50,420 nucleotides of DNA. Origin: an uncultured Lachnospiraceae bacterium (GTDB lineage Bacteria; Bacillota; Clostridia; Lachnospirales; Lachnospiraceae). Under the pieces are notes generated by a model. That model was not told the DNA's origin and did not search any database. It worked only from the letters and a program-made list of their open reading frames with translations. The translations under genes and the position numbers were made by a program. Positions 41,082 to 47,223 of the stretch are shown here, one piece after another. Position 1 is the stretch's first letter. Each line of letters opens with the position of its first letter. Location of the stretch: the NCBI GenBank assembly GCA_951800145.1, contig CATOJE010000020.1, forward strand, positions 1 through 50,420, read 5' to 3'.

Positions 41082-41453
41082 ATGGGAATCGGATTAAGAG
41101 CAGTACAGAGCCAGAAGGTATCACAAGGCCTGGTTCAGCAAGCCGCTATTTTGCAAATGAGTTCCCCTGAGCTTACCAGCTATAAAGTGGCAGCAATACA
41201 GCTGGATACAAAGAATAATAAGCTGGATAATGCCTATGGCCTCAGCAACAATATCGTGGCCTACTACATCACGCCTGTCACCCAGTCTCTGGGATATACC
41301 AGAGCGGCATTTAATTTCTGCTTTACCTTAATGTCCATAGTTAGTTTTCTGGCGACTCCGGTTTATGGATGGAGGTTTATGAAAGTTCCCATCCGGAAAA
41401 TCATAGTGATCGGGGGAGCGGCGGGAGCAGCCTTTTTCTGGTATACTGGATGA
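41082..41453 (+). pseudogene. Chimeric remnant: sigma-54 N-terminus joined to an MFS transporter piece
   Basis: The first 37 codons (GLRAVQSQKVSQGLVQQAAI, LQMSSPELTSY) look like region I of RpoN (sigma-54). From about codon 50 the frame changes character to the first membrane part of a major-facilitator permease (NNIVAYYITPVTQSLGYTRA, NFCFTLMSIVSFLATPVYG, IRKIIVIGGAAGAA) and stops. Neither parent is complete. An RBS and ATG are present, so a chimeric peptide could be made, but function is unlikely. Confidence 0.5.
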
Positions 41454-41499: not shown

Positions 41500-41835
41500 T
41501 GGGAAGATTCAGTAAGGGCTACACATCTGTTTTTATCGGAAAATGAGATATCCAATATCAAGAAATATGTACCGCAGGCACTAAAAGAAGTCGGGAGTTT
41601 GGTTGTCGCAGAGAACGCCAGCGGCTTTCCGGTTGCATTTATGGGAGTAGAGGGGCAGCGGCTTGAAATGCTGTTCATTCTGCCCACCGAAAGGGGAAAA
41701 GGGTTGGGGAAAACGCTGCTTCAATGCGGGATCAAGGATTACTCGGTTAATGAGCTGGCGCATGATGCGGACGGTAAGAAATATCTTTACGACCTGCTGG
41801 CAATAAAAAAAGAAACGAGCAGCCCGCTTGAGTAA
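41500..41835 (+). pseudogene. GNAT acetyltransferase remnant
   Basis: The frame reads WEDSVRATHLFLSENEISNI, then VAFMGVEGQRLEMLFILPTE and RGKGLGKTLLQCGI, which is the acetyl-CoA-binding motif A of GNAT enzymes. There is no in-frame start before 41500. After NELAHDADG the sequence leaves the family, ending KETSSPLE, so the C-terminus has been replaced by a deletion junction. An ATG with RBS at 41499 lies in another frame. Confidence 0.65.
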
Positions 41836-42150: not shown

Positions 42151-42277
42151 ATCAAAAAGGAGAAGGGGGTATATATAGCGCAGTTCGGAAAAAATAGGAA
42201 CTCTACGCTTCGTAGGTTGTTTCGCGGGGAAACGGGCGGTAGAATATGTCTATATTCGGGAAGAGAGGTACTTACAG

Positions 42278-42859
42278 ATGGGTTATGTAACAGGAAAGAC
42301 CATAAAAGAATTGAGAGAAAAAAGAAAAATGACACAGAAGGAGCTTTCGGAAGTGATTGGTGTCAGTGATAAGACTGTGTCAAAATGGGAAACAGGAAAA
42401 GGACTTCCAGATATTGGAATCATTGAGGAGCTGGCAAAGGCGCTGGGGGTTTCTGTGGCGGAACTGCTGACAGGAGATTTAAGGGAGAATGCAAACCAGT
42501 CAGCGAATATGCGGAGGATGTGCTTTTATGTCTGTCCGGTCTGCGGGAATATTATCACCTCCGTGGGGCATGGCTCTTTTTCCTGCTGCGGGCTTACCCT
42601 GCCGGAGGCGGAGCCGGAAAAAGACAATGGCGGACACAGTATTTGCGTTGAGACCATAGACGACGAATATTCCGTGACGATGGATCATTCCATGGAGAAA
42701 GGACATTACATTTCTTTTATCGCCTATGTGACATCGGATGCCCTTGATCTGGTGAAGCTGTATCCGGAGCAGGGGATTTCCGTGCGGTTCAGGAAAAAGG
42801 GGCATGGCTTCCTTTACGCGTATTGCAACAGGCATGGAATGTTTAAAGCGATGCTCTGA
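42278..42859 (+). CDS. XRE-type HTH fused to a desulfoferrodoxin (superoxide reductase)-like domain
   Basis: A 193-residue fusion. Residues 7-62 form an XRE helix-turn-helix (TIKELREKRKMTQKELSEVI, DKTVSKWETGKGLPD). Residues 82-192 follow desulfoferrodoxin: a rubredoxin-like site Cys86, Cys89, Cys103, Cys104 (CPVCGNI, FSCCG) and a superoxide-reductase-like site His120, His137, His143, Cys183, His186 (MDHSMEKGHY, YCNRHGMFK). Ligand spacings (His-x5-His, Cys-x2-His) equal the enzyme's. The catalytic Glu-Lys pair before the first histidine (EKH) is replaced by NGGH. This points to an iron-based redox-sensing regulator rather than a fast enzyme, which is inference. A plausible promoter is TTGTTT-N17-TAGAAT (42217-42245). 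Confidence 0.85.
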   Translation: MGYVTGKTIKELREKRKMTQKELSEVIGVSDKTVSKWETGKGLPDIGIIEELAKALGVSVAELLTGDLRENANQSANMRRMCFYVCPVCGNIITSVGHGSFSCCGLTLPEAEPEKDNGGHSICVETIDDEYSVTMDHSMEKGHYISFIAYVTSDALDLVKLYPEQGISVRFRKKGHGFLYAYCNRHGMFKAML

Positions 42860-44807: not shown

Positions 44808-45233
44808 TTGACAGAAGAACAGACCGTTTCAAAGTGGGAGACGGATGAAACACGCCCCGATATCCGCCAGTCAAAGAAGATGGCGGTTCTGTATGGACTG
44901 CCACTGGATGAGCTGGTGGAGCTTGATATTGATATCAAGGAGATACAGGAAGTGATCGACCGGACCAGTGAGGAGGCATCGGATAAGATTGACTGGATGA
45001 AGGCATGGATCGGAAAATATCCGGTTCTGTCCCGGTATCGGGAGGAAGTGGATACGGATCGTTATGGGGCGGAGCTGGGTAAGCTGTTAGGGGATCTGGA
45101 AAAGAGATACGGATACAATGAACTGGATTCTTTCCCGGCTCTTTGTATGATATTGCTTGAGAGGCGCAGAATAAGTGGTAAGCATAGAGAAAAAGTTTTC
45201 CGGAGAGATGTATGTGCGGCAGATATTATGTAG
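44808..45233 (+). pseudogene. XRE-family regulator lacking its N-terminus
   Basis: The frame begins directly after a stop with TEEQTVSKWETDETRPDIRQ, the second half of an XRE helix-turn-helix, then a helical acidic domain (ELDIDIKEIQEVIDRTSEE, YGAELGKLLGDLEKRYGYNE). The first helices are missing, no RBS is seen, and the C-terminus runs into the start of the SRAP gene, suggesting a lost stop. Confidence 0.6.
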
Positions 45234-45817
45234 ATGATGAGACGGCAAGGGAAATCGAAAAGCTGATTCGGCAGGTGGACGAGAAGCTGCGGCAGGAGTC
45301 CATGGCAGCCCTTAGGAGAATTGCAGAGAAGGACATCTATCCTACCCAGATGGCTCCGGTTCTGGAAGGAGGAGGCGCATGTTTGCGCTGCGGGTGGCAA
45401 AGATGGGGATTTCCTGGATTTCAGGGAAAGCAGGTGATCTTTAACGCCAGATGTGAATCCGCTATGGAAAAGCCAATGTTTCGCGACAGTATCCGTCATG
45501 GCCGCATGGTGATTCCTGCCGCATGGTTTTATGAGTGGAACCGGAGGAAAGAAAAGAACACCTTTTACAGAAAGGACAGACCGGTTTTGTTTATGGCAGG
45601 GTGCTGCAGGCAATATGAGGATGGGGTGCGTTTTGTGATTCTCACCACCGGGGCCAATGCTTCCATGAAGCCTGTCCATGACCGGATGCCGCTGATTCTG
45701 GAGGAGGATGAGATCGCTCCGTGGATTCTGGATGAGAGACAAGCGGAGCATATCCTTCATAAGACGCCCTGCCTCCTGGAGAGGAGAACTGATTATGAGC
45801 AGCTGACGTTATTTTAG
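45212..45817 (+). CDS. SOS response-associated peptidase (SRAP, YedK/HMCES family)
   Basis: A 201-residue SRAP protein. The catalytic Cys2 becomes N-terminal after Met removal (MCGRYYVDD) and forms a thiazolidine crosslink with abasic sites in single-stranded DNA, shielding them. Other active-site parts are NARCESAMEKP, AAWFYEW (Glu) and PVHDRMPLIL (His). Start 45212 has TCCGGAGAG upstream. It lies next to the LexA-boxed polymerase IV gene, fitting a damage-tolerance cluster. Confidence 0.92.
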   Translation: MCGRYYVDDETAREIEKLIRQVDEKLRQESMAALRRIAEKDIYPTQMAPVLEGGGACLRCGWQRWGFPGFQGKQVIFNARCESAMEKPMFRDSIRHGRMVIPAAWFYEWNRRKEKNTFYRKDRPVLFMAGCCRQYEDGVRFVILTTGANASMKPVHDRMPLILEEDEIAPWILDERQAEHILHKTPCLLERRTDYEQLTLF

Positions 45818-45871
45818 GCGATTGTGTCCGGACTCTCCTGAAGGATATGGTATCCCAGGGAAGCGTATTAA

Positions 45872-45899
45872 TTGTCCACAGACTGAGGGCTGGTATAAT
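45872..45899 (+). promoter_or_regulatory. Promoter of the Pol IV gene
   Basis: TTGTCC (45872-45877), 16-base spacer, TATAAT (45894-45899) with an extended -10 TGG. Two LexA-like boxes follow. Confidence 0.72.
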
Positions 45900-45914
45900 T
45901 TACCAGTTGAAATA

Positions 45915-45928
45915 AGAACATATGTTTG
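45915..45928. promoter_or_regulatory. LexA box 1 of the Pol IV gene
   Basis: AGAACATATGTTTG matches CGAACRNRYGTTYG at 13 of 14 positions, about ten bases after the expected transcription start. Confidence 0.75.
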
Positions 45929-45949
45929 CTAACATGTAAATGTGGGAGG

Positions 45950-45963
45950 TGAACATACGTTTG
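45950..45963. promoter_or_regulatory. LexA box 2, overlapping the Pol IV start codon
   Basis: TGAACATACGTTTG matches the same consensus at 13 of 14 positions. Its last bases are the TTG start. Centre-to-centre distance from box 1 is 35 bases. Confidence 0.7.
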
Positions 45964-47223
45964 AATAAGATTATATTTCATATAGATGTGAATTCAGCCT
46001 TCCTCTCCTGGGAGGCTGTTTATCGTCTGGCTCATAAAGGGGGAAAGCAGGACTTAAGAACCATTCCTTCCGCCGTGGGCGGGGATGTGGCTCTGCGCCA
46101 TGGGATCATTCTGGCCAAATCCATTCCCGCCAAAAGATACGGGGTGAAAACCGGAGAGGCTCTTTGGGAGGCTAAGAGGAAATGTCCGGGCCTGGTCCTG
46201 GTGCCGCCTAATTATGGGCTGTATGAGAGATGCTCCGCGACGCTTATGGAAATTCTCCGGGACTATTCCGATGTGGTAGAACCGTACAGCATCGATGAGG
46301 CCTTTGTGGATATGAGCGCCAGCTGCCATTTGTTTGGAAGGCCGAAAGAGGTGGGGCAAAAGATAAAGGACCGGATTTATGAAGCGTTGGGATTTACGGT
46401 TAATGTGGGAATTTCAAGCAATAAGCTTCTGGCAAAGATGGCGTCGGACTTTCAAAAACCAAACCAGGTGCATACTCTGTATCCGGAAGAGATAGAAGAG
46501 AAAATGTGGCCGCTTCCTGTGTCGGACCTGTTTTTTGTGGGAAGGGCTACTGCGAAAAAGCTGTTTTCTGTGGGAATACGGACCATAGGGGAACTGGCGG
46601 CGGCAGATCCTAAGTGGATTAAGGGATTGCTAAAGAAGCATGGGGAAGTGATCTGGGCATTTGCCAATGGGGTGGACTTATCTCCTGTTCTCATGGAACC
46701 GGAGGCGAATAAAGGGTATGGGAACAGTACGACTCCCCCTTTTGATGTGACAGGTGTGGAGATGGCGGACAAGGTATTGCTGGCTCTCAGTGAAACGGTT
46801 GGGGCCCGCCTGCGTATGGATGGAGTCAGGGCGGGGATGGTATCGGTGGGAATCCGGTATACGGATCTTTCTTATGTCTCTCACCAGAAGAAACTGTATA
46901 ATGCCACGAACCTGACGATAGAAATCTATCAGGCAGCCTGCAGATTATTCAGGGAATTGTGGGATGGACAGCCGGTCCGGCATTTGGGGGTGCATACGGC
47001 CCACATAAGCGGCGGGGAAGGATTCAGGCAAGGCAGCCTATTTGACGAAATTGATTATGAGAAGCTTTCCAGGCTGGATAAAACCATTGATGATATCAGG
47101 GACTGCTTTGGCATAGACGCTGTGAAGCGCGCCGTATTTTTAGGCCAGGCCATAGACCATATGAGCGGCGGCATATCCAGGGAGAAGAGAAGGGTTGATT
47201 ATGACAAGCTGGAGATTCTGTAG
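45961..47223 (+). CDS. dinB: DNA polymerase IV (Y-family translesion polymerase)
   Basis: A 420-residue Y-family polymerase that copies past damaged bases. Catalytic acids lie in FHIDVNSAFLSWEA and YSIDEAFVDMS; the KLLAKMASDFQKP and ELAAADPKWIKGLLKKHGEV segments mark the palm and the helix-hairpin-helix thumb, and the little finger follows to the C-terminus. I take TTG 45961 as start, because GGGAGGTG sits nine bases upstream and homology begins there; ATG 45940 would lie before the RBS. Two LexA boxes imply SOS induction. No beta-clamp-binding peptide was verified at the tail. Confidence 0.93.
   Translation: MNKIIFHIDVNSAFLSWEAVYRLAHKGGKQDLRTIPSAVGGDVALRHGIILAKSIPAKRYGVKTGEALWEAKRKCPGLVLVPPNYGLYERCSATLMEILRDYSDVVEPYSIDEAFVDMSASCHLFGRPKEVGQKIKDRIYEALGFTVNVGISSNKLLAKMASDFQKPNQVHTLYPEEIEEKMWPLPVSDLFFVGRATAKKLFSVGIRTIGELAAADPKWIKGLLKKHGEVIWAFANGVDLSPVLMEPEANKGYGNSTTPPFDVTGVEMADKVLLALSETVGARLRMDGVRAGMVSVGIRYTDLSYVSHQKKLYNATNLTIEIYQAACRLFRELWDGQPVRHLGVHTAHISGGEGFRQGSLFDEIDYEKLSRLDKTIDDIRDCFGIDAVKRAVFLGQAIDHMSGGISREKRRVDYDKLEIL

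Follow-up and report, generated by a model that had tools for sequence, protein, structure and literature searches.

The window analysed here is a stretch of 50,420 nucleotides from an uncultured Lachnospiraceae bacterium (GenBank assembly GCA_951800145.1, contig CATOJE010000020.1). On its forward strand, at 42278..42859, lies a gene for a protein of 193 amino acids, referred to below as HTH-Dfx, whose make-up was determined from profile matches and structure comparison. The N-terminal domain (residues 9-63; 42302..42466, + strand) is a five-helix helix-turn-helix (HTH) of the Cro/C1 type, which both the domain match and the structure comparison place in the XRE family. It is followed on the same strand by a desulforedoxin-like part (residues 81-105; 42518..42592), in which the alignment to the D. 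baarsii structures identifies Cys86, Cys89, Cys103 and Cys104 as the ligands of centre I, and by a neelaredoxin-like part (residues 117-191; 42626..42850), which carries the centre II ligands His120, His137, His143, Cys183 and His186. All nine desulfoferrodoxin ligands are present (CxxC...CC in centre I, four His and one Cys in centre II), and the description given in the initial annotation, namely an XRE domain fused to a desulfoferrodoxin-like body with nine ligands, is borne out by the ligand alignment and the domain matches. A comparison of a predicted structure with desulfoferrodoxin, which had been proposed as a check, gave a concordant result: the AlphaFold model matches the two-iron (2Fe) superoxide reductases (SORs) according to VIA-align, whose list covers the top chains of Foldseek. 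The protein scores 43.3 bits with TIGR00320, below the cut-off of 146.9 bits, while for PF01880 the score is 21.6 bits against a cut-off of 22.2 when the protein is searched alone and 22.7 bits, above the cut-off, in the genome search, in which HTH-Dfx is the sole match in this genome (86% complete). Elsewhere in the window, short open reading frames (ORFs) at 41082-41453 and 41599-41835 show partial MFS and GNAT matches below the curated cut-offs and are probably remnants, and a gene for a SRAP-domain protein adjoins a gene for a Y-family DNA polymerase at 45212-47223.

The initial annotation regarded this fusion as a rare design and suggested a search for it across Lachnospiraceae; in this respect it has to be corrected. 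The order of domains in the window protein, with the HTH N-terminal to a desulforedoxin and SOR module, is that of the class HTH-Dx-SOR, which SORGOdb had already named in 2011 (PMC3116461) and to which the available portion of that article assigns 19 proteins. Among 200 Lachnospiraceae genomes, sampled at nearly one per genus, 50 contain an HTH-Dfx match at E 1e-25 or better, although three of these are incomplete (partial matches in G008 and G133, the HTH part alone in G026). Together with the SORGOdb class, this means that the fusion is a known design and not a rare one. No HTH-Dfx match was found in the second genome sampled from the window's genus. A tblastn scan in which each GTDB species was represented by one genome revealed at least 586 stretches encoding a relative, among which plain XRE proteins may be included; the best 80 of them (L001-L080), all aligned over nearly the whole query, come from Bacillota, from Eggerthellaceae (Actinomycetota) and from Treponema and its kin (Spirochaetota). 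Counts of homologues given in this work do not represent independent events, as they are inflated by close relatives, though the flanking sequences have diverged. A tree of 148 rows divides the HTH-fused proteins from the canonical ones at a support of 100/100; HTH-Dfx forms one clade, apart from the true superoxide reductases.

We also considered a mobile element as the carrier of HTH-Dfx and rejected it; at E 1e-15 the matches were two records from the plasmid collection (one of them a replicon of 2.6 Mb) and one contig labelled 'Bacteriophage sp.'. The latter (L313, MT835563.1), an unannotated and unverified contig from human faeces, carries an HTH-Dfx gene together with the operator described below (one mismatch) and may be bacterial DNA.

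For the analysis of metal ligands, 131 rows were built from the 80 GTDB loci, the window and the 50 family loci (the window being among these again). Distinct Dfx parts are found in 126 of the 131 rows, and after the truncated L164 and L165 had been dropped, 124 relatives remained for the counts. Cys86, Cys89, Cys103, His137 and Cys183 are kept in 124/124, His143 in 123/124, His120 in 120/124, Cys104 in 94/124 and His186 in 92/124. The substitutions at positions 104 and 186 are coupled (both in 28 rows, one alone in two and four rows, respectively), mostly because a single clade (support 94/86) combines Cys104 replaced by His or Asn with His186 replaced by Asp; the latter change is also seen on separate branches (L022, L038, L158). 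Rows with the double substitution include L061, L062, L066, L069 and L128-L131, so that both metal sites are re-liganded in one lineage. The first ligand, His120, is replaced only in four distant members, by Glu (L161, L162), Phe (L154) or Pro (L160). Conservation of the nine ligands in orthologues, on which the initial annotation had made its reading depend, is found in 20/20 rows of the window's own branch and in 87/124 relatives as a whole, but it breaks down in the clade with the exchanged Cys104 and His186 and in the four members without His120. These losses indicate that the complete set of nine ligands is dispensable for the class.

The Glu-Lys pair that precedes the first ligand His in the enzyme is replaced in the window protein by Gly118-Gly119 (42629..42634, + strand). 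This replacement, pointed out in the initial annotation, stands out clearly against the canonical SORs, which we represented by 30 loci from the window's bacterial family; 29 of them could be parsed, and all 29 read Glu-Lys-His. Lys is found before the first ligand His in only 7/124 HTH-Dfx proteins as opposed to 29/29 canonical SORs, the complete Glu-Lys pair is retained in 3/124, and Glu at position -2 is retained in 67/124, which makes the Gly-Gly variant peculiar to a minority of the class. The class as a whole, and not the window protein alone, has nearly lost the catalytic lysine. Lombard et al. reportedly described in 2001 the role of the Glu-Lys pair in SOR catalysis, and the lysine is the residue that speeds the reduction of superoxide. 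Without it, an SOR-type centre would be expected to be slower towards superoxide, and NO or peroxide might be among its ligands.

The pattern of conservation bears on the possibility that the C-terminal domain takes no part in redox sensing. It could be a structural element, perhaps a zinc-loaded dimerisation module, or it could bind a small molecule such as the substrate of the CatA-like enzyme discussed below, in which case HTH-Dfx would be an ordinary XRE regulator responsive to a drug or a metabolite. The replacement of Cys104 by His with that of His186 by Asp in one clade, as well as the residues other than His at position 120 in 4/124 relatives, would be easily accommodated by such a scenario. 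However, seven of the ligand positions are kept in at least 120/124 relatives, which dimerisation alone would not obviously need, and the window's branch preserves the entire set without exception. We regard this explanation as unlikely.

The DNA upstream of the gene is as informative as the protein. A predicted operator, CTCTACG-CTT-CGTAG-GTTG, occupies 42201..42219 (+ strand) and contains the inverted repeat CTACG-N3-CGTAG at 42203-42215; the conserved pattern TCTACG-N3-CGTAGGTTG spans 42202-42219. Its end is overlapped by a weak -35 element, TTGTTT (42217..42222, +), which is followed after a spacer of 17 nt by the -10 element TAGAAT (42240..42245, +), located 24 nt past the end of the inverted repeat; a probable ribosome-binding site, AGAGAGG, can be read from the sequence at 42262..42268 (+). 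If the -10 element has its usual position, the centre of the operator would be near -43 relative to the predicted start of transcription. In a comparison of the window with 14 homologues, the pattern CTACG-N3-CGTAGGTTG appears as one conserved block in otherwise diverged upstream DNA. Allowing for at most three mismatches, the 17-base pattern is present within 200 nt upstream of 76/80 homologues, as compared with 3/400 dinucleotide shuffles and 0/79 downstream controls, and removal of the 14 homologues from which it was derived leaves 63/66. With at most one mismatch, the merged pattern (fitted on the same data) is found in 115/126 distinct upstream stretches and in 2/630 shuffles. Three or more mismatches to it are seen in 8/126 relatives (250-260 nt examined), in at least three cases because the site sits before an upstream gene of the operon. 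The operator is conserved ahead of HTH-Dfx genes in Bacillota, Actinomycetota and Spirochaetota.

The exact form of the site varies between lineages. In the clade with exchanged Cys104 and His186 it often reads CTACT-N3-CGTAGGTAC. The distant ERGLGCPD group, which we had considered to be devoid of the operator, possesses a variant that approximates CTCTACG-N3-CGTTNATTG, with the right half changed, in the same place and within 160 nt of the gene in 10/14 members, while in a further three it precedes an upstream gene of the operon; the idea of an operator-less group was accordingly abandoned. A count of exact inverted repeats in this group yielded nothing useful.

The geometry of the promoter is also preserved: the best -10 element is exactly at +24 from the inverted repeat in 94/110 homologous promoters, as compared with 8/110 shuffled ones. 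The -35 box usually begins with TTG, and its positions 4-6 are unconserved. In promoters of the C104H/H186D type, counted without de-duplication of the rows, TTG is missing in 26/28 and the spacing to the -10 element is kept in 23/28. With its fixed spacing and a -35 box that is weak or missing, the promoter is more likely to be activated than repressed, and we would put the odds in favour of an activated promoter at about 60:40. The opposite arrangement, in which the protein represses the promoter and comes off the operator once its centre has been oxidised or demetallated, and in which everything else would be as in our preferred reading, is a serious alternative, although not the one we favour. 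The operator touches the -35 box, as a repressor site might, and the structurally closest XRE chains include phage repressors; on the other hand, the weakness of the -35 box and the absence of its TTG from nearly all promoters of the C104H/H186D type, most of which nonetheless keep the spacing, speak against repression.

Searches for further copies of the operator have to be read with caution. In the window's genome CTACGNNNCGTAGGTTG has a single exact match, which is the HTH-Dfx operator itself; with at most two mismatches there are 6 matches as opposed to 23 for the reversed control pattern, and a looser pattern adds one site with no clear gene behind it. No second convincing operator target was found in this genome (86% complete), and neither of the partner genes described below, the CatA-like gene and the gene for a protein of 114 amino acids, was found in it. 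Across the 200 family genomes, a composite of operator and -10 element occurs at 34 sites in 33 genomes, as compared with 53 for the reversed control (hand count), and when one mismatch is allowed and no -10 element is required, sites are present in 29 of the 200 genomes, with the reversed controls more numerous. Since the raw counts of short or mismatched patterns do not exceed those of the reversed control, the evidence lies in the location of the sites and not in their number. Of the 34 composite sites, 24 precede HTH-Dfx (with truncated frames in G026 and G008), one is at a contig end, four precede other XRE genes and five are elsewhere, including those before a CatA-like gene (G128), an FMN-reductase-like gene (G080) and a gene for a C45-type hydrolase (G082).

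An excess over the reversed control was obtained only in two scans with the merged pattern. In 20 chosen HTH-Dfx genomes there are 24 sites as compared with 12 (hand count); 15 of them are at HTH-Dfx or its operon, and the remaining nine precede three CatA-like genes (one of which follows a short XRE remnant, while another is only a fragment of 74 amino acids recognised by eye), one FMN-reductase-like gene, one DUF2087 gene, the C45-type hydrolase gene of G082 and, in three cases, nothing evident. In 391 Clostridia genomes that were not selected for HTH-Dfx, the exact merged pattern occurs at 24 sites in 22 genomes as compared with 11 for the reversed pattern (hand count). A tblastn analysis of the 1.5 kb behind these 24 sites identified HTH-Dfx in 18 cases, a CatA-like gene in three, DUF2087 in one and none of these in two, and 22/24 exact sites are ahead of HTH-Dfx or of a recurring partner gene. 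One of the 18 HTH-Dfx sites is the window itself, another has HTH-Dfx as the third gene of the operon, and the CatA-like gene comes next in two (as one frame) and in one more as a split frame. In each of two genomes (G367 and G449), HTH-Dfx and a CatA-like gene have a site of their own, and in G569 and G391 an exact merged-pattern site is at the CatA-like or the DUF2087 gene.

The CatA-like protein matches the Pfam family CAT (E 1.5e-53) and chloramphenicol acetyltransferases in the PDB (E 2.3e-44), and scores under the NCBI cut-off for type A. A search of the 200 family genomes at E 1e-30 retrieved it from 20 of them. The four closest sequences (>50% identity, query included) are all from HTH-Dfx genomes: three have the operator, which departs from the merged pattern at 1, 1 and 3 positions (the copy with 3 fits the composite pattern exactly), and the fourth (G033) is located directly behind HTH-Dfx, whereas the remaining 16 show at best four mismatches to the operator. 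Members of the CatA-like branch tied to HTH-Dfx by operon or operator are L302, L308, L293, L298, L310 and L261-L264.

A second recurring partner is the 114-aa protein, encoded in 7/200 family genomes, with the operator (0-2 mismatches) in 5/5 HTH-Dfx holders and 0/2 non-holders; three of the five genes in HTH-Dfx genomes share its operon and two are apart. In Acetoanaerobium this gene, with the operator (two mismatches), is ahead of HTH-Dfx. The protein has no Pfam or NCBIfam match, and an initial GIY-YIG assignment was dropped for this reason. The DUF2087 protein and the 114-aa protein are found repeatedly in the same operon, or downstream of the same operator (L311, L254, L295, L251), and the ORF behind DUF2087 in L254 may encode a C45 hydrolase. 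The FMN-reductase-like proteins of G080 and G166 share 39% identity, and no second target for the flavin-reductase-like gene was found in the other nine genomes of G080's genus.

Genomes that lack HTH-Dfx also have sites, before a GNAT-like gene (an exact 17-base site in G037) and before other XRE genes; the operator is thus not exclusive to HTH-Dfx and may be in wider use by XRE proteins. The other XRE-type regulators behind an operator and -10 element in such genomes are L210, L220, L221 and L223.

In view of the sites at CatA-like and other genes, we dropped the notion that HTH-Dfx regulates only itself. Regulation of a neighbouring operon was likewise rejected, as no gene family is found within 1.5 kb in more than 5/81 loci (ORFs of at least 80 aa, loci of uneven length), and a same-strand ORF of at least 80 aa within 100 nt of HTH-Dfx is present in 14/81. 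HTH-Dfx as a regulator or a replacement of the true SOR is not supported either, since a true SOR (hand count, PF01880 at E below 1e-10) is encoded in 27/50 holders and 66/150 non-holders. The same observations bear on the idea that HTH-Dfx is mainly a superoxide-scavenging enzyme that controls its own gene, with effector and regulator in one protein. The solitary PF01880 match and the solitary prominent operator in the window's genome (86% complete), as well as the lack of a regular neighbour, would fit such a self-contained device, and one archaeal SOR without the lysine is reported to be still active. Nonetheless, the lysine is missing in 117/124 relatives, the presence of HTH-Dfx does not track the absence of a true SOR, and the operator is common to other genes. 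We consider this explanation improbable.

The alternatives having been weighed, we propose that the window protein is an autoregulated transcription factor in which the lysine-poor SOR-type body serves as the sensing and dimerising part and which controls a small regulon, and we would assign to this reading as a whole a probability of about 65%. That it acts as a transcription factor on its own gene and on a small regulon appears very probable from the sequence comparisons. Direct observations cover the domain composition, the conservation of the site, the fixed geometry of the promoter and the linkage of the site to recurring genes. The mechanism that we envisage is as follows. The XRE domain would bind, as a dimer, to CTACG-N3-CGTAG about 43 bases before the start of its own transcript, while the C-terminal fold of the two-iron SOR type most likely serves sensing and dimerisation. 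The metal of centre II would respond to superoxide or to another small oxidant or ligand, the state of the centre would set the binding to DNA, and the promoter would be activated rather than repressed. It is plausible that the centre contains iron and senses superoxide or another oxidant. In relatives, the occurrence of the operator before the CatA-like and a few other genes suggests that the output comprises the gene itself, the CatA-like O-acetyltransferase and a few others, i.e. a small and probably detoxifying regulon. The partner genes resemble those for enzymes that process xenobiotics (CAT, FMN_red, C45-type hydrolase), which would be consistent with redox-active compounds, for example, as the signal; this resemblance also counts in favour of a regulator of the non-redox kind discussed above. 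Of the initial suggestion that a retuned iron centre acts as a transcriptional sensor of rare design, the transcription factor is upheld as very probable by the operator and the regulon, and the loss of the lysine extends to nearly the whole class; the sensor is thus supported in part, and the rarity is not supported.

What is newly described here is the predicted operator, the promoter architecture and the target genes, and with these the HTH-Dfx class becomes directly testable. In the available portion of the SORGOdb article (PMC3116461), the HTH-Dx-SOR proteins have the same N-terminal HTH before the Dx-SOR module as the window protein and are treated at the level of architecture only, whereas the operator, the regulon, the loss of the lysine and the ligand-swapped clade come from the present analysis. 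We found no functional study of an HTH fusion with SOR or desulfoferrodoxin in the open-licence literature. A role of an XRE-type regulator in the oxygen response of an anaerobe is described for TrtA of Treponema denticola (PMC12724145), but TrtA is described there as a protein of 104 residues whose XRE match covers 1-80 and which lacks a desulfoferrodoxin part; we rejected it as a homologue of HTH-Dfx.

To our knowledge, the sensing of superoxide by strict anaerobes is poorly understood, and in this context the comparison with better known systems is instructive. With the two-iron SOR or desulfoferrodoxin (1VZG, 2JI1, 1DFX) the window protein shares the fold and the residues of the FeS4 and FeN4S sites, but it differs in the HTH in front, in the lack of Glu-Lys and in belonging to a separate clade (100/100). 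At the promoter, an operator near -43 and a weak -35 box resemble activation by the lambda CI repressor at its maintenance promoter, where a protein of the XRE-type fold binds an operator centred near -42 beside a poor -35 box; this analogy is restricted to geometry, as lambda CI has no metal domain. SoxR combines a MerR-type HTH with a C-terminal Fe-S cluster, and the likeness to it would consist in a metal-centre sensor that governs a small detoxifying regulon, although the window protein is built of an XRE-type HTH and an SOR-type centre. It is tempting to speculate, if only tentatively, that a lysine-stripped SOR site has become a one-protein sensor in anaerobes, most of them gut dwellers, from no fewer than three phyla, where it uses a conserved operator to control its own gene, the CatA-like acetyltransferase and a few other detoxifying genes, with its centres re-ligated in one clade (Cys3His, and His3Asp with Cys). 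Such a protein would be a functional counterpart of SoxR assembled from different parts.
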